From the NCBI GenBank assembly GCA_004292675.1, contig RDXO01000016.1, forward strand, positions 1 through 64,000: DNA of 64,000 bases. The letters are read 5' to 3'. Source of the stretch: Alphaproteobacteria bacterium. GTDB lineage: Bacteria; Pseudomonadota; Alphaproteobacteria; Rickettsiales; UBA998. Below, one piece after another: positions 5,270-21,845 of this stretch (within the stretch, counting starts at the first letter, position 1; each line of letters opens with the position of its first letter). The notes under the pieces are model-generated. The model was not told the origin of the DNA, searched no databases, and was given only the letters and a program-made list of their open reading frames with translations. A program made the position numbers and the translations under genes.

Positions 5270-7432
5270 TCAGCGTACCATAAACTGATGTGATGGCGTT
5301 GTAAAGCTCCCTGCAACATGCGCTTGCACCCTATGCTCTCCACGTTGCAACGTCCAAAGCCATGATGCACCGTGTGTAGTATGCGCCACACCATCCACCA
5401 CCCAAGTGACGGGGGCATCCTCCGCAACACCTGCCAAGCGCATCTCAAATGCTTGATGCTGCTGTGGAATACGCGGATCGAGTGCTAAACGTAATCCTTG
5501 CGATGGGCGTTCAATAAATGGTGTGAACGGAATCTTATCCACCTGATAGGGTGCATCCTGCGTGCCTTGTACAAAATATTCTGTACGTGTAGCGCATTGT
5601 GCATCACCACGTTGCAATGCATCTACATCCGCACATATCTCACGCTGCACCAAATGCGGATTCAATCCCAGCGGAGCAGAAGGTTCATCATGCATCACTG
5701 CATGAAATAATGAACGTAATGCCAAGGCTGCCCCATGCGATCCCGTTACGCCATCCATCGGACGATAATCCGCATTACCCATCCATACCCCAATCACATA
5801 ATGATGATTATAGGCTACCGCCCATGCATCACGATAATTGGTTGATGTTCCTGTTTTAACGGCGGTTTGCATCGGAAAATTCAAGATGCTAGAAGTCCCA
5901 AACTCCCATGAACGCGCCCACGGATCGGAAAGTATATGCCCCATTAGGGATGCCACTTCTCTTGAATAGATCTTCTGCTGTGCTGCTAACGGTTCATCAC
6001 GCAGCACGCGTAGCTTTTGCACTATCCCATGTTGCGGGAAGGTGGCATAGGCTTGTACTAAATCCAGCAAGCTAATTTCGCCATTGCCTAGTGCTAGACC
6101 TTCATCATAAAAATCATAAGGCTTCGTCAAACTATCGAACCCTAAACGCCGTAATAATGCAAGATATGCTTTAGGTGTCACAAACTGAATGGTGCGTACC
6201 GCAGGTATATTCAACGAATTAGCAAGTGCCATGCGTAAAGGGACTTTGCCATAATGCAAACGGCTGTAATTGCGCACATGATGCAACCCTGTTCCAACAT
6301 TATCCGCATACGGGGCATCATCAAGCAATGTCGCTGCCGTCCAGCCTTTGTGCAATGCTGCCGCATAGAGAAATGGCTTAAGCACTGATCCCGCTTGCCG
6401 TGGCGTAGTAACCATATCCAAGGCGCATCCTGCTTTGTTGGGATGTCCTTCGCATCCATCACCGATAGATACCCATGCACGGACTTCACGCGTGCGATGA
6501 TCCAAAACCAAGGCTGCGGCATGATCCACCTTGCGATGTGCCAATGATGCTAGCCTTTGCGCTAAAATCTCATAGGTTGCTTGCTGCATGGTTGCATCAA
6601 GCGTTGTCGTGATTGCCTCAGATGATGAAGCATAAGGCAGGGTATGCTTGCGTATAAATGCCATCATATGGTGTGCATCCACAGGGGGAAGAGGCGGTTG
6701 TAATTCCCATGCATAGGATGTGAGGCTATGCAATGTTTCATGCGTCATCATCCCGCGATCCACCATACGCTGCGCTAACCGCCCTATTGCCCCTTCAATC
6801 GACACCGCATCATGATAGAGATCATAGGCAGAAGGAGCGCGTACTAAAACCACAAGTGCAAGCATCTCTTTCGGGGTAAGCGTATCGAGATCACGATTAA
6901 AATAATAGCGCGCTGCCTGCACAACCCCGCGTCGTTGCGCTGCATAGGGTACTTGATTTAGATAAAATTCCATCAGTTCACTTTTGCTTAAACGCTGCTC
7001 CAGCATCACCGCTTCAATGCCTTCCATCCATTTTGCCCATAGGGTACGGCTTCTGGGATGAAGCATCCGTACCACTTGCTCCGTGATGGTACTCGCACCC
7101 CGTCCATGCGTTCCTTGTGTCACACGCTGCACCACTGCATGAAGGCGCGCCCGCCAATCGACCCCATGATGATCATAAAAACGCTTATCTTCTGAAATCA
7201 CAAATGCATCACGCATCAACCGTGGAATATGATGCCATGCGGTGCGATTATGCATATTCCACTGATCATGATAATGGTAGGATAATGGCTCACCATGCCT
7301 ATCCAGCATTTGCACACGATGCGGAGCGTAGCGCACCTGCTGATAGGATAGATAAGGATCACGATAGGCATAGAGGGTGGCACATAGCACCATCACCACC
7401 ATGATGATTGCACTACGCAGCACCAATTTCAT
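5270..7432 (-). CDS. pbpC: Penicillin-binding protein 1C
   Basis: 720 residues with one N-terminal membrane anchor (about 5-22), a GT51 glycosyltransferase domain (catalytic E81 in SEDKRFYDHHG; GASTITEQ at 112-119), a transpeptidase domain with S349-x-x-K352, SLN at 406-408 and KTGTS at 526-530, and a C-terminal domain about 640-720 of the type found only in PBP1C. It would polymerise and possibly cross-link peptidoglycan at the outer face of the inner membrane. The ATG overlaps the stop of the alpha-2-macroglobulin gene by 4 bases (ATGA). In E. coli the same pair (yfhM-pbpC) is adjacent and thought to link wall repair with protease trapping. Confidence 0.96.
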   Translation of the reverse strand: MKLVLRSAIIMVVMVLCATLYAYRDPYLSYQQVRYAPHRVQMLDRHGEPLSYHYHDQWNMHNRTAWHHIPRLMRDAFVISEDKRFYDHHGVDWRARLHAVVQRVTQGTHGRGASTITEQVVRMLHPRSRTLWAKWMEGIEAVMLEQRLSKSELMEFYLNQVPYAAQRRGVVQAARYYFNRDLDTLTPKEMLALVVLVRAPSAYDLYHDAVSIEGAIGRLAQRMVDRGMMTHETLHSLTSYAWELQPPLPPVDAHHMMAFIRKHTLPYASSSEAITTTLDATMQQATYEILAQRLASLAHRKVDHAAALVLDHRTREVRAWVSIGDGCEGHPNKAGCALDMVTTPRQAGSVLKPFLYAAALHKGWTAATLLDDAPYADNVGTGLHHVRNYSRLHYGKVPLRMALANSLNIPAVRTIQFVTPKAYLALLRRLGFDSLTKPYDFYDEGLALGNGEISLLDLVQAYATFPQHGIVQKLRVLRDEPLAAQQKIYSREVASLMGHILSDPWARSWEFGTSSILNFPMQTAVKTGTSTNYRDAWAVAYNHHYVIGVWMGNADYRPMDGVTGSHGAALALRSLFHAVMHDEPSAPLGLNPHLVQREICADVDALQRGDAQCATRTEYFVQGTQDAPYQVDKIPFTPFIERPSQGLRLALDPRIPQQHQAFEMRLAGVAEDAPVTWVVDGVAHTTHGASWLWTLQRGEHRVQAHVAGSFTTPSHQFMVR

Positions 7433-10400
7433 GGTTTCTCACCAGCTCTAATACGCACTTGTTCACCCGCACTCTTTCCATAGGTTTCAGCATGATACAT
7501 CTCCTCTACATGCAGTGGCGGAGCATGGAATGTACCTGCTGCAATCGCATATGCTGTGTAGGACAGATGATAATTCCCCGCACTCGCATGATCCGCATAA
7601 AAACGTGCGAATTGATGCGTCAATTCTTGATGATAAAAGCCCCAGCGCGAACGCTCTAACGAGTTCCACTCTTTGTGCTTGTGCCACCATGCCCCTTTTG
7701 CCGCCTTAAACGCACCAGTCGCATCATTCGCATCCACCACAGATGCGGTATGTAGCTGCGTATTGATCGGTTCAAGCCCTGCTACCATTGGGTCATCCAC
7801 CACCACATAATAGCGATCCGTGGGAAGGGTAAGATACATATCCACGCGCACTACATCCCCCTGTTTAATCTCAGCGGAAGATGCCAGCAACTCCCAAACA
7901 TCCCCACGCTTGACGCTATATTCACGATGCACCTCAAACCCTGCATTCACCGCATCTATTTTTTCTTCGCGTGTGGCATAGTGCAACTGCGTTGTATAAT
8001 AGCTGCGCCCTGTGCCTTGTGCTTCAATCTTTAGTGAGGTGGGTGAAGCTATCTCGTTTTTAGTGAATGTATGAATGATGTTCAACGGTTCATCAGATAC
8101 TTTTTCAAATATGGCTTCGCCAATGAAATTGCCTTGTACCGTCGCTTTTATGGTGGTATGGATTGCTTTACCCTCATAATGCTTCGCATAATCCGCCATC
8201 GCGCTTAAACATGCGACATGTTCCTGCGTGCTTTTATAGGATTTTGGCTGCTGATATGCCTTGAGAATCCCGCGCACTAACGGTTGCACCATAGTGTGCA
8301 TCTGCTCTTTATGCGTGACATTTTGCTCCCATGCCACAAGGTGCGATACCAAGACGCATTGATCACGCAATGGGGATGCAAGCACGCGCCACGCTATAGT
8401 ATCATCCTGCGCACGCACCTGTAGCACACCACTATCATGATGCAGATACGAGCGTATACGATCCACGCCTTCCTTAAACTGCTTCGTAAACGCTGCATCC
8501 CCTGCCAATACATCATTAAAATAAATCTGACCAACAAGCAGCATTTGTGAGGCATGAGATCGCAATCGTTCTGCTTGCGCTGTGTCGGTTGTATGATGAT
8601 GCGCTAATGCCGAAAGAGCCATCGCCCGTACAGTGGAAAGCACATGCAGATCATAACCTGCTTCGGTGGGGGCATGACGTAACAATTCTTCAAGATAGCC
8701 ATATAGCTTGGTTTCCACTTGCTCGGGGATTATATAGCCTGCACGACGTAATCGCATAAAAGCATGAGCCGTATAGGCACTTAAATACGGATCAACATAC
8801 GCATTTTCACCCACCCAAAATGCCATACCACCATTGGGTGCTTGATAGGATGCAGCGCGATCAACCAAGGTTTGAGCTAAGGCGTGCGCCCCTTCCCACT
8901 GCACAGACTGCCCAACATAGTTACGCAACTGATGATAGCTTGAGGCTGCTAATGCCTTAGAGATCGTCTGCTCCCAACATGAATAGGGATAATCGCGCAT
9001 GTCGCGGAATGCTTCATGCATCCCCCCAAGCAAAGATGGGGATAGTTGCACATGTAACTGCGATCCATCAAGGATCGCATCTTCAGGGAGCAGCATCGGA
9101 ATATCCACCGCCCTTGGTGCAATGAGCGTACCCGCTTGCGCAGCAATATGCATCGAACGGCGTTTTTTGATCGGCAAGCGATGAATGAGCGCATCGCCAT
9201 CAAGCGCATCTTCAGCGCGCATGGTAATAGTGATGCTACCTTCCTCATAATCGCGTTGTTGTGGAAGTAATCCCGCTTCTATAGGTACGGAATGCGTCGT
9301 GCGCCCATAAGGCGCAAGCGTGATCTGCTCTTTTTTAGTAACGGAGCGCGTCACATCACCATTCACTTCAACCTCAAGATTCAAGGTGCGCGTCTTATCC
9401 ATACGATTAAAGATGCTAAAACTTAATTCCGCCTTATCGCCTTCCATCAAATAATTCGACATAGCAGGGCGAATCTCAGTCGGTTGCGTCACGCTAAATT
9501 GCGCCTCGCCTAAGCCCATCTTATCGCTCGGTGTCCACGCCATCGCAAGAACGCGCCATCCTGTGAGGTTATCAGGGAGCGTAAATTGCGCTGTGGCATT
9601 GCCCAACTCATCGGCACGTAACGCAGGATTCCAATAGCTAACAAAACGCATTAATGAGCGCATCGACATATCAACGCCACCATCCCCACCCGCATTCACG
9701 CCTTTTTTCTCAAATGAGTGCCGCCCCACCATACGCATCAGGGTACTAAAATTGCGCACATCAAGGCTACCAAGCGCGAATAAACCTCGGCTTGGGTTGA
9801 AATAATTCACGCCGTCTTTCAGCAAATCCAAAACAGCTTCATCCAGCACTACTACCGCAAATTGGATGGGTTCTTTTGTGGTTTTATGTTCCGCGTGCAA
9901 ACGCAACGTCACTTCTTCACGTGGTTTATAGTGCGATTTATCGGCGGTTGCTTGGATGTTCAACAATTTCTCGCTATCTTCCACTTCCACCGTGACATAG
10001 CCTGATTTGAAGGTTGGTTTGCCTAAATCAATCTGCCCCTCAATAGGGTGATGTTCAATCGGTTTATCTACCCGTGGAGAGCTAACAATCACGGACAAAT
10101 AAAATCCCGGAATGTGATCAGCAGTGATGGGAAATTCAATCACAGGCGCGCTTTCATCCAAGGTGCGGGTAAATTGATCAATCACCCCATAGCGTTCTAC
10201 TGTGACCCATGCTTGCCCTTTTGGATACGGATTTTTGATCATGTAGCGTGCTATGTCGCCCACTTTGTAGGATTTTTTCTCTGGGATGATTTCTAATGCA
10301 TGTTCATTATTACTGTTCCATGCCACATAGTCACCACCGCCCGCATAAAGATGGGCAATCGTTTGATGCTCGCGCCCTTGATCATCGCGCACCTTCGCCA

Positions 10401-13353
10401 CCACACGATAATAGCCTGCTTGTTGCGGAGTAAAAGTGCAACTTCCTGCATCCTCTGTGGACTCAGCCTCGCATCTATCCTGCACGTTCCATGCCGTGTT
10501 ATATTCATCTAAATAGACATTTCCTGCGCTTTTTACCTTGGCAATTTTCACCTCTTCACGCATAAATTCAAGGTTTATCTTAGTGCCTGCCTGAGGTACG
10601 CCTTTCGCATCCACCACCATATAATGGATCGGGGTTGCAACTCCCGCCTGCCACATCCATTGATCATTACGCAATCCTACAAAACGATCTACGCCCGCAT
10701 AGGGTTTATGGCTACGCGTAGTGATATATGCCCCGCGATCATCCTGCACGGCAGATTCAAACAATAACCGTCCATAATAGATGCTTTCTTCGGGAGCTGT
10801 GAATGAGGTATGATACGCTCCTTTCGCGTCTAATTTATCTTCTTTCTTGAAAATTTCCTTATGATGAATGTGATTGTGCGCACTGTCAAAGGTAAAATTC
10901 TTTGCTTTTGGATGGGGCGCATCAAAAGGTTGCGATTCCAAAATTGCCGTCACACGTACCGGTGCATTCGGAACATTCCCACCACCATGCATGATTGCAT
11001 GGCTTTCAATGTTCACTTGTTCTCCTGCACGGAATAGTTCGCCTTGCACTTCTTGGCGTAGTTTGAACGGTGCAGGCGTGAAATCGCTCACCAGAACTTT
11101 CATCGGAAACCATGTATATGTGCCTTTCACCCCCTGCCCTTGCGCATAATATTCATAGCGATCTTCGCGGTGCTTTGCCACATCGGAAGTAAGGCGGAAC
11201 TGATACCATCCCATAGCGGATTTTTTGGGAAGGGTAACACTACCTGATGCTGTACCGAAATCATCCAAGGTGATTTTTTTATGTTTATGCACTACTTTTC
11301 CCGTAGGATCAATCATCTCAAGCACATACAATGCTTTAGGTGGCGCAACCAATGTGCGGTTATCTTGTTGACGCACCACGATCTGATAATCAATTTTATC
11401 GCCTGCACGATATATCCCTTGAGGTGTATACCCCCATGCACGCATATGCCCATAACGCTCTTTCGGGCGAGCATAAATGGATTCCCCCACACTACGATAC
11501 GTATCCAACTCGAATGATGCTTCTATCGGCAATATTGCCTTGCCTTGGCTGTGATCAACCATCACAAAGATACGCGACGATAGCCCCCATAAATCATAGA
11601 AATGTTCATAGAGATTCAATGTGGGATCAAACTCAGATGTTCCTGCTAAACTCGCTACCCCTGTAGCATCGGTTTGTGCCTGTGCGATTATCTTTGATTC
11701 ATCGTGCAGATTATGGAGGGTATCATGCACCAAACGCACCTGCGCACCTTCCACAGCTTTGCCCGTTGCCATATCCGTGACCCATACGCTACTAGAAAAA
11801 TGCCCTATCTTGGCATGTACTTGAAATGGGGTGACTTGTGCAAAAAGCTGATTATTTTGATAATGTTTCCCTACCTCGGGGGTTGTCTTAAGCGTTCCTA
11901 TCAGCGCCCCTCCTTGTTCCCCTACGAGAGATCGTATCTGCATCGGAATTGCAAATTGTTTATTACGAATCTTTGGGAAGGCATAATGATGGGTGTGAAC
12001 CGTTCCTATTTTTGGTTGATGCACGAGATGATAATCCAGTTGCGCACTATCCAAATTATTCACATAGAGCGGTATATCGCTATCTATGGCTTTCTCAAGC
12101 ACGGCTTCTCTATAAATCAATTCAAAGTTCGGTTTGCGGTGATCGGTACGTAGCGTCATCGCTATAGGTGTATCAAGCGTGCGCCCGAATTCATCGCGCA
12201 ATCCTGTTGCGGGTTGATCAACGAACAATCCAACAATTTTATACCACACACCTTCCCACCATGGCACATCCGCACTTAGTGGCTCTTTACTGCGTATCTG
12301 ATAATCTGTTGCTGCTTTAATCCCTGCTGGCAACCATATATTATATTTGCGCCCTTCTTCATACGATGAAGATAATTGTGAATAATCCTCAAAATCCCCC
12401 CAAGGGTCTGCACCACCCTCCAGCGTGATAGGCGGAGAAAACTGCATATGCTCCTTAATTTGCGATCGTTTCACAGGCGCACTGAACGATAATGCCGCAC
12501 CGCGCATGGGGTTACACTGCTTCCATGTCTCAGGCTTATCCGCTTCCATCAGCACTAAGTTTGCATCATCTTCATTGGTATAACACTGTACACCAAGAAA
12601 GCGCAATGCAGGGAAGGTACGAAATGCTAATAGATTACGCTCTACGGTGCTTGGCACGCTACCATGAGCAGATACTAGCCCTGCTTTAAGTTTTAGCACC
12701 ATCGGCGTATCTAGCGGCAATGATCCCACAGGCTTCACCCACCACACCGAACGCGCCTTTTGCCCCGATGCCGTGCGCACTAGCGTATCTTCTTGTTCTC
12801 CATCTGGGATAACCACGCGCACATCATACTCATGCCTATGATGGTTCGTAGGGGCAAATCTAAAACTTTTCTGCACGGAACGCCATGTCACAGGCTGCGA
12901 AAAATGCACACGCACCAGCGGACGACCTGCCGAAAGCCATGTGGTGAAGGATGCATAATGCACATCGGGCAATACCGTAGTAAATTGATGCGTGATTGGC
13001 TGCTGCAATTTTGTTCCATCAAGCGCACTAAACTCTGGCTTTATCTGCATTTTATAGAATGTTGCTTGCTGCAACGGTGATGCTGCGGGAATCTGACATG
13101 CAAGCGTGTCGGTATCCAGCCACCGCCACCCACACGCAACCTTCGGTGTGATGGTGATGGGTATCTCGGTGGTTGCACGATCCATGTTGCCCAACTGCAC
13201 CATCGGTTTATTGAACTGCAACACAATCTGCTTTGATAAGGCTGCATCATCCCCTGCTGGCGTGATATTTTGAATGATCAACGGATCACTCAATGATTGT
13301 GCATTAGCACAAAATGCAACCATCATGAACAGAACACAGCATACTATTTTCAT
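7429..13353 (-). CDS. Bacterial alpha-2-macroglobulin, thioester type
   Basis: 1974 residues, starting with a signal peptide that ends about FCANA-Q. No lipobox is seen, so unlike the E. coli lipoprotein this one is probably soluble in the periplasm. Repeated macroglobulin-type beta domains fill the first ~1200 residues; the thioester domain carries CWEQ with C1459 and Q1462, the pair that forms the internal thioester (CLEQ in most relatives). Family members trap proteases covalently after bait-region cleavage. It overlaps glnB upstream and pbpC downstream by 4 bases each, so all three are translationally coupled. Confidence 0.95.
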   Translation of the reverse strand: MKIVCCVLFMMVAFCANAQSLSDPLIIQNITPAGDDAALSKQIVLQFNKPMVQLGNMDRATTEIPITITPKVACGWRWLDTDTLACQIPAASPLQQATFYKMQIKPEFSALDGTKLQQPITHQFTTVLPDVHYASFTTWLSAGRPLVRVHFSQPVTWRSVQKSFRFAPTNHHRHEYDVRVVIPDGEQEDTLVRTASGQKARSVWWVKPVGSLPLDTPMVLKLKAGLVSAHGSVPSTVERNLLAFRTFPALRFLGVQCYTNEDDANLVLMEADKPETWKQCNPMRGAALSFSAPVKRSQIKEHMQFSPPITLEGGADPWGDFEDYSQLSSSYEEGRKYNIWLPAGIKAATDYQIRSKEPLSADVPWWEGVWYKIVGLFVDQPATGLRDEFGRTLDTPIAMTLRTDHRKPNFELIYREAVLEKAIDSDIPLYVNNLDSAQLDYHLVHQPKIGTVHTHHYAFPKIRNKQFAIPMQIRSLVGEQGGALIGTLKTTPEVGKHYQNNQLFAQVTPFQVHAKIGHFSSSVWVTDMATGKAVEGAQVRLVHDTLHNLHDESKIIAQAQTDATGVASLAGTSEFDPTLNLYEHFYDLWGLSSRIFVMVDHSQGKAILPIEASFELDTYRSVGESIYARPKERYGHMRAWGYTPQGIYRAGDKIDYQIVVRQQDNRTLVAPPKALYVLEMIDPTGKVVHKHKKITLDDFGTASGSVTLPKKSAMGWYQFRLTSDVAKHREDRYEYYAQGQGVKGTYTWFPMKVLVSDFTPAPFKLRQEVQGELFRAGEQVNIESHAIMHGGGNVPNAPVRVTAILESQPFDAPHPKAKNFTFDSAHNHIHHKEIFKKEDKLDAKGAYHTSFTAPEESIYYGRLLFESAVQDDRGAYITTRSHKPYAGVDRFVGLRNDQWMWQAGVATPIHYMVVDAKGVPQAGTKINLEFMREEVKIAKVKSAGNVYLDEYNTAWNVQDRCEAESTEDAGSCTFTPQQAGYYRVVAKVRDDQGREHQTIAHLYAGGGDYVAWNSNNEHALEIIPEKKSYKVGDIARYMIKNPYPKGQAWVTVERYGVIDQFTRTLDESAPVIEFPITADHIPGFYLSVIVSSPRVDKPIEHHPIEGQIDLGKPTFKSGYVTVEVEDSEKLLNIQATADKSHYKPREEVTLRLHAEHKTTKEPIQFAVVVLDEAVLDLLKDGVNYFNPSRGLFALGSLDVRNFSTLMRMVGRHSFEKKGVNAGGDGGVDMSMRSLMRFVSYWNPALRADELGNATAQFTLPDNLTGWRVLAMAWTPSDKMGLGEAQFSVTQPTEIRPAMSNYLMEGDKAELSFSIFNRMDKTRTLNLEVEVNGDVTRSVTKKEQITLAPYGRTTHSVPIEAGLLPQQRDYEEGSITITMRAEDALDGDALIHRLPIKKRRSMHIAAQAGTLIAPRAVDIPMLLPEDAILDGSQLHVQLSPSLLGGMHEAFRDMRDYPYSCWEQTISKALAASSYHQLRNYVGQSVQWEGAHALAQTLVDRAASYQAPNGGMAFWVGENAYVDPYLSAYTAHAFMRLRRAGYIIPEQVETKLYGYLEELLRHAPTEAGYDLHVLSTVRAMALSALAHHHTTDTAQAERLRSHASQMLLVGQIYFNDVLAGDAAFTKQFKEGVDRIRSYLHHDSGVLQVRAQDDTIAWRVLASPLRDQCVLVSHLVAWEQNVTHKEQMHTMVQPLVRGILKAYQQPKSYKSTQEHVACLSAMADYAKHYEGKAIHTTIKATVQGNFIGEAIFEKVSDEPLNIIHTFTKNEIASPTSLKIEAQGTGRSYYTTQLHYATREEKIDAVNAGFEVHREYSVKRGDVWELLASSAEIKQGDVVRVDMYLTLPTDRYYVVVDDPMVAGLEPINTQLHTASVVDANDATGAFKAAKGAWWHKHKEWNSLERSRWGFYHQELTHQFARFYADHASAGNYHLSYTAYAIAAGTFHAPPLHVEEMYHAETYGKSAGEQVRIRAGEKP

Positions 13354-14405: not shown

Positions 14406-15860
14406 ATGAAAAAATCATCTAACGTAATGTTACTTCATGCTCAATCCAAGGATGCATCCGTGATTGGGGCGGAAATAAACGCGACTCACGATGGGTCTTA
14501 TGCAATGCTGCATATCGCAGCGGGGCATGATAGTGATGCACTAAAAACACAATTACAACAATCCGTGCCAAATACCAACTTCCTACACAATGTTTCGCAT
14601 GAAGATGGAACGCATCTATTGATCCTGCAAAGTTCCCTCACACCAGATGCATTGAAAAATTCCTTAAATCAGGCAGGCTGCACCTTAGCAGAACCAGAAG
14701 CAGGAAAAGAAGAATTTCATCCGTGGAAATGGCGTGGCTTCAGTAGTATTGTTGGGCAAAGTTTACAGCTTGTGTCAAGTTTCACCAGTGTGCCAAAGAA
14801 TGCAGATACAAATTCCATCTTTTGTTTTGCTGTTCTCAACATCGCGGCAAGCACTATCAACATTGCGTTTGGAGATCAGCATAAGGAAGATAAACATCGT
14901 CTGAATTATATTAAACAAAATATCAATGATGCATTGACCCCTTATGTGGAGAATCCTAATGAATTACCCGATCTGAAGTGCAATTCATTGGATGCACGCA
15001 AAGCAGAAATGCAAGAGCCTACGCTTGGCGAAAAATTATATGAAACCGCACGTCATTATTCGGTGACCGTTGGTGAAGTAGCACTGCGCACTCTTGGTTC
15101 AGCATCGCTAGTATTTCCTGCTGTAAAATTAAAAAACGCCATCCCTTTTATGCAGCAAGGTGATTTTTTAGGTGCATTCAATGCGGCTAAAAATGATAAC
15201 CCCATCTCCATTCAAGCAGGCATTATGATGTTGACGGGTAAATTTCTTTCCATGACCGCGAAAGAGCCTGATCCGTATAATCCGCAACCTGCATCTATCC
15301 TTGATCAATTTCGTGAAAATGTTGCCTTTAAGGCAAGTTCTGTTGTCGAGTTTGGTGCATCAAGCTATATGATGGCAGATCGCCTTAATTTTGTGGACGC
15401 TGAGGACAGAAAAAACAATATCAATGATAAAAAACTTGTAAAAATAAAAGCCTTTGGAAAAGAATTTGACCGCGATTATTTCGGCGGAACAGGACATGGC
15501 GTATTTAATGCGGGATATGTCGTTCGTCTGGGCGCGCCTTTTGGCTCACTGGAAGTCGATATGAAGCACGTCTATGCCTATGTGAGTGATGCACTGATGC
15601 ACGTTCCTGAAGAACAACTACCCAAAGTGCTGCTTGCTACCGCTGCGGGGCTAAAAGATCATTTTTCAGATAGCAACATCAGCATGATTGAAATCTACAC
15701 AGGCATTGTTGAAGATTTACGTAACCATCATCAAGTCGATATTGCCAATCTATCCACCAACAATACACCTATAACAGATATTCCCAACATCACCATCCAT
15801 CAAGTGCAACGTCAAGGTACGGCACATGCCCAAGCTCCTGCACTGGCTATGGCGCATTAA
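14406..15860 (+). CDS. Hypothetical protein, 484 residues
   Basis: I do not recognise this protein. It has no signal peptide. The first ~100 residues look like a compact alpha/beta region; around 105-110 is a W-K-W-R motif, followed by hydrophobic stretches at about 138-158 and 228-243 that could be membrane-associated helices. The middle region is charged and the C-terminal ~40 residues are low-complexity with Thr, Gln and Ala. A clear ribosome site (GAGGT) precedes the ATG by 8 bases, and the length and uninterrupted frame support a real gene. It stands alone, with no partner on the same strand, next to a decayed transposase, so it may be a lineage-specific or acquired gene. Confidence 0.75.
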   Translation: MKKSSNVMLLHAQSKDASVIGAEINATHDGSYAMLHIAAGHDSDALKTQLQQSVPNTNFLHNVSHEDGTHLLILQSSLTPDALKNSLNQAGCTLAEPEAGKEEFHPWKWRGFSSIVGQSLQLVSSFTSVPKNADTNSIFCFAVLNIAASTINIAFGDQHKEDKHRLNYIKQNINDALTPYVENPNELPDLKCNSLDARKAEMQEPTLGEKLYETARHYSVTVGEVALRTLGSASLVFPAVKLKNAIPFMQQGDFLGAFNAAKNDNPISIQAGIMMLTGKFLSMTAKEPDPYNPQPASILDQFRENVAFKASSVVEFGASSYMMADRLNFVDAEDRKNNINDKKLVKIKAFGKEFDRDYFGGTGHGVFNAGYVVRLGAPFGSLEVDMKHVYAYVSDALMHVPEEQLPKVLLATAAGLKDHFSDSNISMIEIYTGIVEDLRNHHQVDIANLSTNNTPITDIPNITIHQVQRQGTAHAQAPALAMAH

Positions 15861-15906: not shown

Positions 15907-15930
15907 TTTTCGCTAATGTGCTAGCGAAAA
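15907..15930. other. Perfect 9-bp stem-loop after the orphan gene
   Basis: TTTTCGCTA (15907-15915) pairs perfectly with TAGCGAAAA (15922-15930) around a 6-base loop. It lies 46 bases after the stop of the 484-residue gene and could stop transcription, but no T-run follows on the plus strand, so a role as an intrinsic terminator is uncertain. It could equally be the outer end of the decayed insertion element. Confidence 0.5.
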
Positions 15931-15987
15931 TGCTGGATTTGCGAGAACTGCAATGTAAGTAGCTGTCCATCCCCGTCAAGTTGGGTC

Positions 15988-16189
15988 ATTGATTACCGAG
16001 TGTATAACCCGATTGCAGACGGCAAAAACAAGCTGGATCACGTGGCGGATATGATTGCGCCCACAGCGTGGAATGGAAGAAGTTGGATTTTGGCGTGGTG
16101 TTGTTTGATAGCTGGTATGTAACGCATGATCTGATGAAGTTGTGGATGATTTGGGGAAACGCTTTTATAGCGCGACTTTGACATTGTGA
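15988..16189 (+). pseudogene. Decayed DDE transposase fragment (IS701/IS4-like)
   Basis: Three pieces of one transposase are readable in different frames. From 15988 the frame gives IDYRVYNPIADGKNKLDHVA; after a shift near 16070 another frame gives LDFGVVLFDSWYVTHDLMK, the region of a catalytic Asp in IS701-type transposases; then a further shift gives VVDDLGKRFYSATL. Both ends of the gene are missing, so only about 200 bases remain. The rest of the 358-base gap 15861-16218 holds the stem-loop at 15907-15930 and no other feature. Family naming is from memory of motif patterns. Confidence 0.7.
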
Positions 16190-16218: not shown

Positions 16219-17016
16219 TCAACGCGAAAAAGGATAGAATAACTGCCCCACTGGATCAGCAGGCATCGGATGATCCACGCCATAATGCTCAGGTAACACG
16301 CCCTTAGGCATATAAAACGTACCAAATATCACGTCTAATATCGGAAAAGTGGGAGCAAAATTTTTATTCCCACCCTCATCATAACGCGTATGATGCCAAC
16401 GATGAAACACAGGACTTGCCAAAATATATTTGAATGCACCAAACGTCCAGTTCACATTCGCATGAACCATCAGTGAATAAATTTTATTTAGCAACATTAA
16501 TTCTACCATCACCATAGGGGAAAAACCTATCATGATACACAGCACATCGACCAGAGTAAAAGCCAGCCAAAAATTTATGGGGTGAAACCTAAAAGAATGA
16601 ATCCAATCCAACTGCTTGGGGAAATGATGTACCGCGTGAAACTTCCATAAAAAACCACGATGAAAAAACCGATGCACCCAGTAAAGATAAAGATCGGATA
16701 ATAATAGGTACAAAACCGCTTGCAGCCACAAAGGTTGCGCAGAAAGTATGCCCCCTGCCCCCTCTTCATAAAATATGAAAAAATCATCCTCACTGACCTC
16801 GAATCCATAAAGAACCATGGATGCAAGCATCATCATATAAAAATAGACCCAGCGCGTTACCAAGGGCATCAGGAAGATAAAGCTAAAATCTGCCAAGATG
16901 TTTTCCTTCCACCATTTAATGCCCCGGTTGCAGGGCATCCATAGGGAGAGGAGAGAAAAAATAACGCACGAACAGACAAGAAAAATCAGCAATTCTTCAA
17001 CATAATGGAGGAGCAT
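16219..17016 (-). CDS. Fatty acid hydroxylase / sterol desaturase family protein
   Basis: A 265-residue membrane protein with the di-iron histidine boxes of the superfamily: H115-x-x-x-H119, H127-x-x-H130-H131, H185, and H205-x-x-H208-H209. Several hydrophobic segments surround them. Members hydroxylate or desaturate lipids, sterols, carotenoids or lipid A acyl chains in the membrane; the substrate cannot be told here. It begins 6 bases after the prepilin-peptidase-like gene and is probably the last gene of the promoter at 19085-19113. Confidence 0.9.
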   Translation of the reverse strand: MLLHYVEELLIFLVCSCVIFSLLSLWMPCNRGIKWWKENILADFSFIFLMPLVTRWVYFYMMMLASMVLYGFEVSEDDFFIFYEEGAGGILSAQPLWLQAVLYLLLSDLYLYWVHRFFHRGFLWKFHAVHHFPKQLDWIHSFRFHPINFWLAFTLVDVLCIMIGFSPMVMVELMLLNKIYSLMVHANVNWTFGAFKYILASPVFHRWHHTRYDEGGNKNFAPTFPILDVIFGTFYMPKGVLPEHYGVDHPMPADPVGQLFYPFSR

Positions 17017-17022
17017 TATCGA

Positions 17023-17787
17023 TTATCCTAAATAGGAGAGCATCACAATCATACTTCCAACTGTCCCCATCACCCATGCAGAATGGCGAAATTTAGGGGA
17101 TATTCTGCCAAGCACGGCATAGCTTATGATAGCGAAAAACACGGATAAGATGACAAAGGGGATGATGGCACTTTTTCCTAAACACCATCCGCCTAACCCC
17201 AACATCATCGCATAAATGGGAAAAGGTGTGCGTTTGCGTGCAATGGCACATTCTGCCCCCCATATCACAATGCCAACCATCATGGCAAGATAGCCACCCA
17301 TGAAAAAACCTGTAATAGGTTCACCAAACGACATACGATACACCGCAGCAACACCCAAAAAGGCAGAAACTAACACTGCAAAAAGACGTTTTTCAATGAA
17401 ATATAAGGCAGCTATGGTGATTAAAATCACATCCATAGACAAAATCAGCACCAATGCTTGCCCAAAGCCATAAATGAAATAATTAGCGGAAAATAATATG
17501 CCACACAAGGCTTCAACAATCGTATAGGTCACAGGGATTGCGACAACCGCGCAATAACGGCACTTGCCCCGCGTTGATAACCACGAAAACACCGGAAAGA
17601 GATCCTTAGGTGAAAGATAGACCCGGCGTTCACATTCGCAATAAGGCGGATCATTGGCTATGGTTAAACCACGAGGCAAACGATAAATAAACGAGGTCGC
17701 ATAATTGCCCGCAGCAATCCCTAGAATGAACATTATGACAATACCGACATAATAATAGACTAGGGAGCTAGATAAAAATTCTACCAT
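17023..17787 (-). CDS. Prepilin-peptidase-like membrane protein lacking catalytic Asp
   Basis: 254 residues, 7-8 hydrophobic segments. The N-terminal part matches the A24 N-terminal (methyltransferase) domain: G-N-x-x-x-x-x-I-Y-R-L-P-R-G-L, a C-x-C and a C-x-x-C pair (zinc-type cysteines), and the SWLSTRGKCRYC segment. The peptidase half has normal length, but the two catalytic aspartates of A24 peptidases are not found: the usual LLPD region reads YFIEKRLF, and the GxGD region reads PFPIYAMM. It should therefore not cleave prepilins. ATG 17787 starts 4 bases after the EAL gene's stop; a TTG at 17820 would overlap it. Confidence 0.78.
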   Translation of the reverse strand: MVEFLSSSLVYYYVGIVIMFILGIAAGNYATSFIYRLPRGLTIANDPPYCECERRVYLSPKDLFPVFSWLSTRGKCRYCAVVAIPVTYTIVEALCGILFSANYFIYGFGQALVLILSMDVILITIAALYFIEKRLFAVLVSAFLGVAAVYRMSFGEPITGFFMGGYLAMMVGIVIWGAECAIARKRTPFPIYAMMLGLGGWCLGKSAIIPFVILSVFFAIISYAVLGRISPKFRHSAWVMGTVGSMIVMLSYLG

Positions 17788-17791
17788 AGGT

Positions 17792-19027
17792 TTAGTTTTG
17801 TACTGTTCGGGTTGGATCAATCAATTCATCTAAATAACGCCCCTGAAAGAGGGAAATACCAAATGCCTGACCATATTCCACCGCTTGCCGGTTATCGCAA
17901 CGGGTTAAGATAACGCGATTAGCACCACAACGCTTCACTGCCTCCGCAATGGCTTTATTTTCTGGATTCGATGCCTCATTGGCATTCCATTGCAACTTAA
18001 TCAAATCCACTTCTAATAATGCACGATTAATCATCGGGAAACTATGTTCCGTGACACCATCAAGGCACAGACGATACCCCATTTTCTGCACATAATCACG
18101 CGCAGAGATAAAGGCATACATATCCTCAAATATATCTGAGGCTTGCACTTCCAAGACAACGGATACCTTTGACGAAGCACGCAGCGACGCATCAAAGGCT
18201 TGAAACACATCCGACATCAACGTCTTGACATTGAGATTAATACTAATAGGTGACGATGTGTGCTGTTCGGCACGCTCACTAAGCATCAACAAAATTTGAT
18301 GATCGAGCGTTAATGTGAGGTATTTGAACAACCAGCGATTACTGACTAAATCCACATCCGTGTCGATAAGCTGCTTAAGGTGCGCAATGTTGATATAGAG
18401 TTCGTCAAACACGCGACGCACTGCCATGCTTGGCACGGTGGCACAAATAGGCTGCTTACGCATCGCTTGAAGCACATCCACCTCACCAATGAGACGCTCA
18501 ATCTGCCCCAAATTTGATGAATCAAAAAAGCGTGCTTTCTTTAACATATTGACTGAGAGAAGACTCTCGCCTGCTTTATCTTTTTTTGTAGGCGTAGCCG
18601 TAGGCAATGGCGTTTTTCGATTGCTCAACATTTTTTTGCGAACCATCGCGCACACATCTTCATACGAATCGCGCATCACAAAAACATGGCAAAAATCTTC
18701 ATTCTCATGCCCATCATGGGTATAGGCCAAGGGATCATCCATGAATAAATAACGCAACTGGAATATCACTTTTTCCATCAACATTTTTGGGATATTATGC
18801 CCTACCACCATAAGGTTAGCATCGTCAAACAGACAAATCAACCCTTCTTGATTCTTCAACAAATCACTGATTAAATTGGTAGCGATCTTGATCTGATATT
18901 CGCTACGATAATATTCCAATAGCTGGGAAAAATGAAACACGACAACCACGCTATCGTTCATTATTTCTTTGTTGCTTGCAAGATATTCAATTAACTTCGC
19001 TTCTGCGCCTGTGCTTATAAGTTTCAT
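17792..19027 (-). CDS. Degenerate EAL-domain protein
   Basis: 411 residues. The C-terminal ~220 residues resemble an EAL phosphodiesterase fold: a SINLNVKTLMSD segment, VVLEVQASD, a GYRLCLDGV strand, VDLIKLQW, and the terminal FQGRYLDE motif. The EAL signature itself and several metal-binding Glu/Asp residues are not seen, so it probably binds a ligand or partner rather than hydrolysing cyclic-di-GMP. The first ~170 residues have no clear family match; they could be a degraded GGDEF domain. A strong promoter lies 60-85 bases upstream. It is followed by the dead prepilin-peptidase-like gene. Confidence 0.75.
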   Translation of the reverse strand: MKLISTGAEAKLIEYLASNKEIMNDSVVVVFHFSQLLEYYRSEYQIKIATNLISDLLKNQEGLICLFDDANLMVVGHNIPKMLMEKVIFQLRYLFMDDPLAYTHDGHENEDFCHVFVMRDSYEDVCAMVRKKMLSNRKTPLPTATPTKKDKAGESLLSVNMLKKARFFDSSNLGQIERLIGEVDVLQAMRKQPICATVPSMAVRRVFDELYINIAHLKQLIDTDVDLVSNRWLFKYLTLTLDHQILLMLSERAEQHTSSPISINLNVKTLMSDVFQAFDASLRASSKVSVVLEVQASDIFEDMYAFISARDYVQKMGYRLCLDGVTEHSFPMINRALLEVDLIKLQWNANEASNPENKAIAEAVKRCGANRVILTRCDNRQAVEYGQAFGISLFQGRYLDELIDPTRTVQN

Positions 19028-19084
19028 AGCGATTCGTTCACTTCACAACTGTAAATAGGGTTAGAAATATATAGTCGTTCAGTG

Positions 19085-19113
19085 ATTATACGCATAATTC
19101 TGCACAGAGTAAA
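19085..19113 (-). promoter_or_regulatory. Strong sigma-70 promoter for the EAL gene
   Basis: On the minus strand TTTACT (19113-19108) and a perfect TATAAT (19090-19085) are separated by 17 bases. Transcription would start about 19078, leaving a ~50-base leader before the ATG at 19027. This is the best promoter-like sequence I noticed in the window. Confidence 0.65.
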
Positions 19114-19123
19114 CAATGTTTAC
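19109..19123. promoter_or_regulatory. 15-bp palindromic operator candidate
   Basis: GTAAACAATGTTTAC is a perfect palindrome of 7-base arms around one central base. It overlaps the -35 element of the promoter at 19085-19113, the right place for a dimeric repressor, or an activator contacting polymerase. The binding protein is unknown. Confidence 0.55.
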
Positions 19124-19143: not shown

Positions 19144-21822
19144 TTATCGATTAAACCTTCGCTGTGTCATAAAAGATTCCAATGCTCGCGTGTCCGCACT
19201 CAAGAGCGGATCATCCATAGACTTTTTGAAATAGAGCGTAATTTCTGGAAAATCACTAATCGCCATACTTGGCAATTTGAAGGTGAGCGCGTAATTCATC
19301 GCCCATTTTTTGATGTTTGCAGCCCCAACCATCGTGCCTATCGCATGTTTTGAGCGGAATTTCAAACCGTTTGTGTGCATCCGCGTGGAATCAATATTAA
19401 ATGCACCTTCCACTGTTTGAAAGGTAGTTTGCCCCTTAATCAAAGCAATGCGTACCGTATTGGCAATTTCACTATTACTGCGCACGCTTGGTAAAGATTG
19501 TACCAGACTTGCCACATCAAAACCGCGAATGACAATATCCCTACCAAATAATACCATGTTTGCAGAAAGATTATCAATCAAATTATTCAGCGTAATGCCA
19601 CCTGTATCAAAACGTAGATTGATATTCATCCGCCCGCGAATCGATGATAGATTTAAGGTCGATTCCAACATACGATGCACTAAAACATTTTTTAGCCTCA
19701 AATCTCCTTTGATCCCTGCAATGGAAGATACGTCGATTGTACCTTTATAATTCATCGAACCTTCCCATACATCTGCATACCACTCACTTACATCCCACAC
19801 GCCTTCATCGGTTTTAGCCTGAATACGCACATTTTTCATGACCACGGAATCATGAAATAATTCCCCAAACTCTAGATCAAACACGCCTGAATAACCTTTT
19901 AAGAAATCCATCACTAGGGGCTTATCTCCCCATATACTAACATTATTATCACGCTTCACAGGATAGGTACGAAAGCTACGTCCAACCAATGAGTTGACAT
20001 TGAAATGTGATAGATACACATGGGCGTTAATATTAGGGATTGCTTCGGATTGATCAATGCCAACATCACCTGAAAATTTAATTTCGCCAACATTCAAATC
20101 CACCGAATTAAATTGCATTTTATCCGGGGCAATAGTGAGTAAAAACCGTGAAGGCTTGCCCTCTAAATCATACAAGGTAAAGCGATCAAATACCAAAGTG
20201 CATTTATAGCTATTACGCATAGAATCAAGCCAAGGCAAGGTGATTTTTGGAGTATCAAAATTATCCTCCAACAGCGCACCGCTTGCCGCCGGGTTGATAT
20301 AACGCGCTAAAGAATCCAGCTTACTGCCCGATATTTTCAAATTAGCCACATAATTGGTCTCACCTTCGGGATAATAATCAACCGCACCTTCGACAAAAAA
20401 ATCACCCGCTTGAAAGCGCAATTCTGAAATGGCACTTGTCTGAGGAGAGATATAGAGTGTTGATTTAGCGCGGAAGTTACCTTCATGATTTGCCATCAAC
20501 TTATGTTCATCAAGGTTTAGCCCACTCATAAAGGCTTGGATATTTTTTCCTAATAATTCCAATGTTGCATCCAAATTGACATTTTTATTAATATCCATCT
20601 TGAGGATACCAAAGAGCAATAATTGCGTATCACCCGCCATATGCGCAACCGCCTGATTGATGGTCAATTCACCATCCCGTAGCATGGCAGATAAGTCAAT
20701 ATTGCGTGATTCCACCCCAAGCCATGCTAATTTCTTGATGCGCACATCAACCGTTCCTCGACTTTTGGCAGGAAGCATATAGGCTATCAAATGATTAAAT
20801 TGCTCCTTCGTGTAGGAAGCTCCAAAATCATCATCAATCGTCACTTCCGCTAATTCAAGATTGATCTTAAACAAGGCACTATCCCGATTGACAAGAGACA
20901 GACCTATAGATAGCGGGTGTTCATTCATCGTCATATCACGTGATGCTACAACCAATTTCGCCCCTTGCATTTTTATCGCAAGCCCACCTTTAATGGCATT
21001 ATCCTCTCCCCATATATCATGCAACCGATCATTATGCGCTTGTATATCAACAAGATAAGCCCATGAAGCAAGATTTTTTATATGTGATTCTATCATGCCA
21101 TCCAAATGCAGCGCATTCTTGATATATCCCCACTTGCCTTCATAACGGACGGTATCTTCACCTGAGGTAAGCTGCACCTGAAGAGCATCCATGGCATCAC
21201 GCACAGATCGCCCCGATGCATGAAAATGCATTTTATGCTCGGAAATGATCATATCGAAATCCGAAGTAAATTCTCCTTCCTTATCCGCATGGAAGCTCCC
21301 ACTTACCCCCTGCAATTCATAAAGATTTTGCGCACCAAAGGGAAGAAATGATAGCTTGCTCGCTTGAATATGAACATCCGAGGGAATATAGGGATTGGAT
21401 AATATTTTTCCAACATGTCGTGATAATTCAAGGGTATAGACATCAGGATTTAACTCTTGGATTTCCAAAGAAAGCCCATCAATCTGCATAGATTCAGCGT
21501 GAAAATCACCCGTAAATGCATCAAAAATCCCAAAATCGATTGCAACCATCTGAATGGTCATCAATTTATCTGATAAAGCCTTGGGATGATTTTTAATAAT
21601 CACCCCAGAAAAAGTCATGCGTGGTTTCAGAGGAAACGATGCCTCAGCAGAACGTATGCTCACATCATAACCTAATTGCTCACTTAAATCATGCTGCACA
21701 CGCACGCGCATCTTTTCAGCATCCATCATCATTGGCACAAAGAGCGTGGATAATGCGATCATCACCAGCAAAATAATGCATATAATCAATACAATTTTAA
21801 CTTTTTTTGAAATTGCAATCAT
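19144..21822 (-). CDS. AsmA-family envelope protein
   Basis: 892 residues with one N-terminal membrane segment (about 8-29) followed by a long periplasmic beta-rich protein. The N-terminal region has the AsmA pattern (LSEQLGYDVSIRSAEASFPL, then the F-S-G-V-I-I strand), and the C-terminus (about 640-870) has the AsmA-like C-terminal repeat region with a RGRMNINLRF segment. AsmA/YhdP relatives form bridge-like proteins that move phospholipid between inner and outer membrane. ATG 21822 has AGGTGG upstream; a GTG three codons earlier is possible. It lies downstream of rnj on the same strand, separated by large palindromes, so it may have its own promoter. Confidence 0.88.
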   Translation of the reverse strand: MIAISKKVKIVLIICIILLVMIALSTLFVPMMMDAEKMRVRVQHDLSEQLGYDVSIRSAEASFPLKPRMTFSGVIIKNHPKALSDKLMTIQMVAIDFGIFDAFTGDFHAESMQIDGLSLEIQELNPDVYTLELSRHVGKILSNPYIPSDVHIQASKLSFLPFGAQNLYELQGVSGSFHADKEGEFTSDFDMIISEHKMHFHASGRSVRDAMDALQVQLTSGEDTVRYEGKWGYIKNALHLDGMIESHIKNLASWAYLVDIQAHNDRLHDIWGEDNAIKGGLAIKMQGAKLVVASRDMTMNEHPLSIGLSLVNRDSALFKINLELAEVTIDDDFGASYTKEQFNHLIAYMLPAKSRGTVDVRIKKLAWLGVESRNIDLSAMLRDGELTINQAVAHMAGDTQLLLFGILKMDINKNVNLDATLELLGKNIQAFMSGLNLDEHKLMANHEGNFRAKSTLYISPQTSAISELRFQAGDFFVEGAVDYYPEGETNYVANLKISGSKLDSLARYINPAASGALLEDNFDTPKITLPWLDSMRNSYKCTLVFDRFTLYDLEGKPSRFLLTIAPDKMQFNSVDLNVGEIKFSGDVGIDQSEAIPNINAHVYLSHFNVNSLVGRSFRTYPVKRDNNVSIWGDKPLVMDFLKGYSGVFDLEFGELFHDSVVMKNVRIQAKTDEGVWDVSEWYADVWEGSMNYKGTIDVSSIAGIKGDLRLKNVLVHRMLESTLNLSSIRGRMNINLRFDTGGITLNNLIDNLSANMVLFGRDIVIRGFDVASLVQSLPSVRSNSEIANTVRIALIKGQTTFQTVEGAFNIDSTRMHTNGLKFRSKHAIGTMVGAANIKKWAMNYALTFKLPSMAISDFPEITLYFKKSMDDPLLSADTRALESFMTQRRFNR

Positions 21823-21845
21823 CACGCCCACCTATGAATGAGGAT

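Follow-up and report, generated by a model that had tools for sequence, protein, structure and literature searches.

A probable peptidase-dead PilD paralog and its conserved degenerate EAL partner in Rickettsiales, with a possible link to pilins

To our knowledge, prepilin cleavage and methylation are carried out by one enzyme in the cases described. Passages of PMC3584216 present the cysteines of that enzyme, PilD, as binding zinc and serving methylation, with removal of the zinc sparing cleavage; next to the third cysteine, a glycine and a basic residue contribute to methylation as well, and the purpose of methylating the N-termini of type IV pilins is given there as unknown. Some prepilin peptidases, TadV being the case treated in the relevant part of PMC10191384, are known to lack the methylase half; no published description of the reverse, a methylase half without a working peptidase, was found in searches of an open-licence library. 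The locus considered here offers a candidate for such a protein. It lies in a 64,000-nucleotide stretch of contig RDXO01000016.1 (GCA_004292675.1; "the window"), from a Rickettsiales genome of 1.6 Mb and 85.6% completeness, and pairs a prepilin peptidase-like protein, A24d, with a degenerate EAL protein, EALd (Table 1).

Judging from alignments and phylogeny, A24d is almost certainly an old duplicate of PilD that has lost its peptidase activity. Like PilD/XcpA (family A24), with which it aligns over the whole length (hhalign, 99.9%), it has the A24_N domain with four cysteines, the glycine and the basic residue; unlike them it lacks the catalytic aspartates, the GxGD motif and the Peptidase_A24 domain, and a separate, live PilD is encoded in the same genome. 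With TadV/CpaA it shares the condition of being one half of PilD standing alone, but as a mirror image, since A24d has retained the methylase half and given up the peptidase half.

The original prediction, made from the window alone, had described A24d as retaining a Cys-rich N-terminal domain and missing both catalytic aspartates, and closer analysis agrees. A24d matches A24_N (PF06750) at 60 bits (cut-off 23) and has no Pfam match to Peptidase_A24 (PF01478), a division found throughout 16 A24d proteins (A24_N in 16/16, Peptidase_A24 in 0/16). An A24 prepilin peptidase has two catalytic aspartates, the second in GxGD; in the window protein both positions are occupied by other residues in a MAFFT alignment and in an independently made profile-profile alignment (hhalign), the first (D1) by Tyr and the second (D2) by Ile according to hhalign or by the neighboring Tyr according to MAFFT. 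No Asp adjoins either place, and the alternative raised with the original prediction, that the catalytic residues had shifted, was ruled out for this protein by hhalign.

The same losses run through the relatives. Both aspartates are absent in all 35 A24d rows from EALd-linked families, whose alignment has no alternative Asp position, and each of the 15 remaining rows lacks at least one, with the first kept in 8/15. Over all 50 rows the first is therefore present in 8 and the second in one (L225, whose branch is long and unsure and which has an Asp in the D2 column); several rows have an Asp one place ahead of that column (P-D-Y). The order has forms lacking one catalytic Asp as well as forms lacking both, and from the alignments it seems that loss of the second preceded loss of the first, in a group whose internal branching is not settled. 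Long branches at L075 (G038), L217 (G060) and L225 (G065) carry additional A24 copies in which catalytic residues are lost or odd, possibly through independent losses. Outside the order, 18 of the loci from the class search described below were opened in search of dead A24 proteins: 14 have both aspartates and 4 have no peptidase part.

The phylogeny was built from 102 A24_N proteins of the order, namely the window protein and 101 others taken from loci in this genome and its relatives; a split with 100/100 support divides them into 50 A24d and 52 PilD-type rows, in a tree whose bootstrap is not fully settled. L052, in which A24d is partial and lies at a contig edge, and L002, which lacks A24_N, stand outside this set; L075, with both aspartates absent, and L219, with the second absent, are counted as PilD because the tree places them there. 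The first 40 wide-flank loci were the best-scoring ones and are skewed toward the EALd-linked branch, and 60 short and 16 wide stretches were then added. A related-locus scan of named genomes returned three loci only, and a plasmid search with A24d gave no match.

The other half of A24d has fared differently. Its four zinc cysteines are conserved in 50/50 rows (the open frames of these rows hold by construction), and the group has been kept across 18 family-level groups. Mean pairwise identity among A24d rows is 44.9% in the N-terminal half and 20.4% in the C-terminal half, compared with 51.5% and 38.7% for PilD. A glycine together with a Lys or Arg before the third cysteine is kept in 34/50 rows, including the window protein, which has Gly-Lys; its first cysteine pair is C-x-C rather than C-x2-C. 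The window protein accordingly has both an A24_N domain with four cysteines and the full combination of cysteines, glycine and basic residue that marks the methyltransferase half of PilD. Positions of the PilD N-domain signature (R-x-P, Cys, L, D, P, S, E) are also common to A24d. The ratio of nonsynonymous to synonymous substitution rates (dN/dS), measured against a 95% identical sibling, is 0.12 for A24d, 0.10 for PilD and 0.04 for EALd. Since A24d has the determinants of methylation, "dead" may describe the peptidase only.

EALd had been predicted to be EAL-like without the EAL signature, and this is borne out: it matches only the later part of the EAL domain (PF00563, profile positions 62-233, 44.5 bits) and has Ile at the place of the EAL glutamate. 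Among 85 aligned relatives (56 from the order and 29 from the class, with the full EAL protein of the host genome as reference), the EAL Glu and the later catalytic Glu are lost in 85/85 and the second D of the DD pair has become Gly in 81/85; kept are Asn (85/85), Lys (84/85), the first D (83/85), Gln (83/85) and the ExxE Glu (82/85). The functional reading of these columns follows the usual assignment for EAL domains. The EAL Glu, DD pair and later catalytic Glu that together characterize an EAL phosphodiesterase are thus not found as a set in EALd. The family is widespread, in 65/343 genomes of the order and 86/289 of the class draw.

The N-terminal half of EALd is probably a degenerate GGDEF domain, as weak structural evidence suggests, and has no Pfam GGDEF match. 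An AF2 model of EALd, weak at a mean predicted local distance difference test score (pLDDT) of 57, finds its closest folds mainly among GGDEF-EAL tandems, at E-values no better than 7e-4; LapD, PA0861, MorA and DosP are among the best, but at TM-scores of about 0.2, and no membrane or PAS part was seen in EALd. The A24d model (mean pLDDT 47) was left out of the fold search. Searching solved structures by sequence gave no meaningful match for EALd, A24d or the hydroxylase described below, nor for an EALd profile.

A24d and EALd are found together well beyond this genome. Among 50 EALd loci read by script (with the window left out and its sibling counted), A24d follows EALd directly and in the same orientation in 26, an AsmA-like gene precedes EALd directly, also in its orientation, in 25, and both neighbors are present in 19. 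A tblastn search adds the EALd-A24d pair in L042, L052 and L060; the ORFs (open reading frames) for both proteins in L042 and for A24d in L060 were missed by the simple gene caller and are known from tblastn only. Another ORF separates the two genes in L048 and L055, and in L046, L047, L050 and L059 A24d lies in a stretch without EALd. Seven family-level groups (f1, f12, f16, f20, f23, f26 and f29) conserve the two degenerate enzymes together, as the original prediction of co-conserved lost activities implied, which makes a non-catalytic role for the lost halves reasonable. The flanks of the set vary, with RNase J in f1, metX-metW in f23 and aroA-cmk in f16, f20 and f29; glmS is nearby in 16 loci. 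A set that stays intact amid changing surroundings points to more than inherited gene order. The conserved trio is AsmA-EALd-A24d, with the hydroxylase outside it. A PAS/degenerate-GGDEF protein comes after EALd at six of the 50 loci (L159, L163, L167, L173, L174 and L254, from families f5, f7, f10 and f22), in most with recG next; a relative of this protein occurs alone at C6 of the host genome (L178).

The hydroxylase had been put forward as the third member of a trio to be looked for in relatives, and that place belongs to AsmA. Its identity as a fatty acid hydroxylase stands (PF04116, 98 bits), as does its position adjoining A24d. It also resembles OlsE, matching NF052566 at 103.9 bits; as the cut-off is 475, it can be called a superfamily relative only. 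Hydroxylases of this kind are present in 6/36 genomes and in 2/10 within the family, and in G031 some 163 kb of one contig separate the gene from A24d. Because it is absent from eight of ten family genomes and unlinked elsewhere, it is placed outside the unit, although in the window it is likely co-transcribed. The three minus-strand ORFs (16219-17016, 17023-17820 and 17792-19027) are confirmed, and the A24d and hydroxylase genes are 6 bp apart, with the hydroxylase downstream. The longest ORF of A24d opens at TTG 17820; ATG 17787 is more likely its start, since the stretch ahead of this ATG is not conserved in the sibling, and the gap between EALd and A24d is then 4 bp.

A strong, operator-bearing promoter shared by the three genes was also predicted. 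A sigma-70-like promoter is indeed present before EALd, with both hexamers kept in the sibling; a scan found 12 such sites where 10.0 are expected by chance, so that "strong" can draw solely on its location and this conservation. The operator was rejected: the inverted repeat GTAAACATTGTTTAC occurs once in the genome, is altered in the sibling (GTGAACATTGTTTAC), and is missing from the six further family members that were read.

What might the pair do? The reading we favor, with somewhat less than even confidence, is that A24d faces pilins and is controlled by EALd. On the sequence evidence, the peptidase half of a PilD duplicate has decayed and its N-terminal zinc "methylase" half has remained constrained. 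At the inner membrane, A24d would use this half to meet pilins or proteins resembling them and might methylate their N-termini, or else hold or sort them, leaving the cutting to the live PilD. EALd could be a cytosolic reader of cyclic di-GMP (c-di-GMP) that cannot hydrolyze it and that switches A24d, much as FimX does with the pilus motor; EALd keeps the pocket residues Asn, Glu, the first Asp, Lys and Gln, with the EAL Glu, second Asp and later Glu gone. This reading gives no account of what AsmA contributes (envelope lipid traffic or surface assembly). FimX, a degenerate GGDEF-EAL regulator of type IV pili, resembles EALd in having an EAL domain with an incomplete catalytic set and some pocket residues kept, but differs in that it keeps the first EAL Glu (as EVL, according to an excerpt of PMC3527489), which EALd does not, and in that EALd is unlinked to pilus genes class-wide.

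In favor of this reading, the host genome has a live PilD with both domains and both aspartates at C45, a PilB-like ATPase and two proteins with strong GGDEF domains; it also encodes a second, CpaA-like Peptidase_A24 protein at C3 and a single full EAL protein. At E 1e-60, PilB-like ATPases were found in 70/115 relatives, with no match exceeding the curated cut-off. Free-living Rickettsiales families with type IV pili are reported in the part of PMC9352585 that bears on this, which would fit the hosts of A24d. In the host PilD (L001) a Ser stands in for the basic residue that typically precedes the third cysteine of PilD.

Further support may come from elsewhere in the class. A search reaching outside the order gave matches in 52/240 class genomes (the own order included in this count), and nine loci with short frames were opened with their flanks; one, L302, ends at a contig edge, leaving eight. 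These eight frames encode A24_N-only proteins of 120-198 aa, with A24_N at 79-107 bits and no Peptidase_A24, and the four cysteines, the glycine and a Lys or Arg are present in 8/8. Four of the genes (G425, G521, G539 and G400) directly follow a gene with a prepilin-type leader, at N_methyl scores of 21.4, 19.3, 23.4 and 16.5 bits, two of them below the cut-off of 21.2; in G425 the N_methyl match is in the gene one before the immediate neighbor. In G477 the A24_N-only gene precedes a T2SSE ATPase, and in G456, G559 and G442 it lies among unrelated genes. Peptidase_A24 matches occur elsewhere in 9/9 of these genomes, eight of them above cut-off. At L295, L298, L300 and L301, a prepilin-like gene and an A24_N-only gene are followed by lipoprotein-like genes without Pfam match. 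These relatives would be independent support for a pilin-facing A24d. A bolder version, and one we consider doubtful, is that the activities of PilD have been split in evolution, giving methylase-only pilin modifiers in Alphaproteobacteria, gated in this order by a c-di-GMP-reading pseudo-EAL protein so that pilin N-methylation becomes a regulated step; such modifiers would have arisen once by peptidase loss in a PilD duplicate and elsewhere as A24_N-only proteins behind prepilin genes.

Several observations weigh against a pilin-facing A24d. None of the A24d loci read is in a pilus operon, and G007, G018 and G034 carry A24d with no PilB match at E 1e-60 (G034 is 75% complete). The glycine has become His in 11/50 rows (all 11 of f23) and Ala in 3/50 (part of f1), and two further rows keep it with the basic residue missing, so that methylation may be lost in these 16. 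PilD-type matches were found in 19/73 genomes with EALd and 31/165 without (counted by hand, with the draws assumed nested); with its class-wide occurrence, this suggests that EALd is not generally a pilus protein. There is also no sign that methylation was handed over from PilD to A24d: PilD lacks the basic residue in 10/41 genomes with A24d and in 3/11 without.

Another possibility, rather unlikely in our view, is that the link to pilins is gone and that the zinc domain and EALd form a membrane scaffold or sensor, a signaling platform, in line with the original prediction. The loss of both peptidase aspartates in every EALd-linked row, the change of Gly to His throughout f23 and the lack of pilus genes beside A24d would all be expected of such a platform; however, the PilD-type N-domain signature that has been kept exceeds the needs of a bare zinc scaffold, and A24_N-only relatives are placed behind prepilin-like genes. 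It is distinctly less probable that the locus is an envelope unit, in which AsmA, through lipid transfer and with the hydroxylase in this genus, tunes membrane lipids or outer-membrane assembly in response to c-di-GMP and A24d serves as a membrane anchor. The persistence of AsmA directly upstream of EALd as the flanks vary, and the hydroxylase close behind A24d in the window, speak for this; the scarcity of the hydroxylase in the family and its location elsewhere in other families do not, and AsmA is not beside EALd-A24d in L053, L058, L062, L065, L066 and L161.

The pilin-facing reading has three more competitors, each of them very improbable. EALd might be a CsrD-like RNA-turnover factor aided by RNase J, with A24d merely carried along: CsrD is likewise a degenerate GGDEF-EAL protein and is the best NCBIfam match of EALd (NF008281), but at 16.8 bits against a cut-off of 663, and RNase J, upstream of the set in f1, is replaced by aroA-cmk, metX-metW or other flanks in other families, leaving this link unsupported beyond f1. 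Slightly less probable still, A24d could act as a protease through other residues, as the eight rows that keep the first Asp and the P-D-Y rows might hint; the window protein, however, has no Asp at D1 or near D2, and no replacing position recurs across the EALd-linked families. Least probable is a functionless, decaying relic. The divergence of the C-terminal half would suit one, as would the stops inside the matched A24 frame of some small genomes (G100, G107, G116 and G119, unsorted between PilD and A24d), but the invariant cysteines, the low dN/dS and retention in so many family-level groups would not.

Elsewhere in the window, positions 5270-13353 encode a bacterial alpha-2-macroglobulin of 1974 aa adjoining a penicillin-binding protein with a BiPBP_C domain, a known pairing. 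A 484 aa protein without Pfam match (14406-15860) was found, among the compared loci, in the sibling genome only. Downstream of the hydroxylase, the broken frames at 15930-16170 presumably resemble part of a transposase.

Table 1. Features of the A24d-EALd locus, in window coordinates.
Feature	Coordinates	Strand	Basis
A24d, peptidase-dead prepilin-peptidase paralog (probable), 254 aa	17023..17787	-	PF06750 only; D1 and D2 absent; second-paralog branch 100/100
A24_N zinc/methylase domain of A24d, residues 21-104	17476..17727	-	Pfam range; four Cys, Gly-Lys before third Cys
Codon at first catalytic Asp place of A24d, Tyr129	17401..17403	-	MAFFT and hhalign concordant
Pro-Ile-Tyr at second catalytic Asp (GxGD) place of A24d	17212..17220	-	hhalign gives Ile, MAFFT gives Tyr
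EALd (411 aa), degenerate EAL protein, N-terminal half probably a degenerate GGDEF	17792..19027	-	Partial PF00563; residue counts; weak model
EALd, probable degenerate GGDEF half, about residues 1-135	18623..19027	-	Secondary structure of best-predicted part; GGDEF domains among fold matches; no Pfam GGDEF match
EALd, EAL-like half	17831..18322	-	PF00563 match
AsmA-like gene, upstream member of conserved set	19144..21831	-	PF05170, 71.8 bits
Sigma-70-like promoter before EALd, TTTACT-17-TATAAT	19085..19113	-	Hexamers kept in sibling
Inverted repeat GTAAACATTGTTTAC	19109..19123	.	Unique in genome, altered in sibling; not supported as operator
Fatty acid hydroxylase, outside conserved set	16219..17016	-	PF04116; 2/10 family genomes

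If A24d-type and A24_N-only proteins do work, two activities of PilD would be separated in nature, giving a clean handle on the role of pilin methylation. If the pilin-facing reading of A24d is true, a second-messenger switch may be attached to a methylase-only protein in these bacteria.

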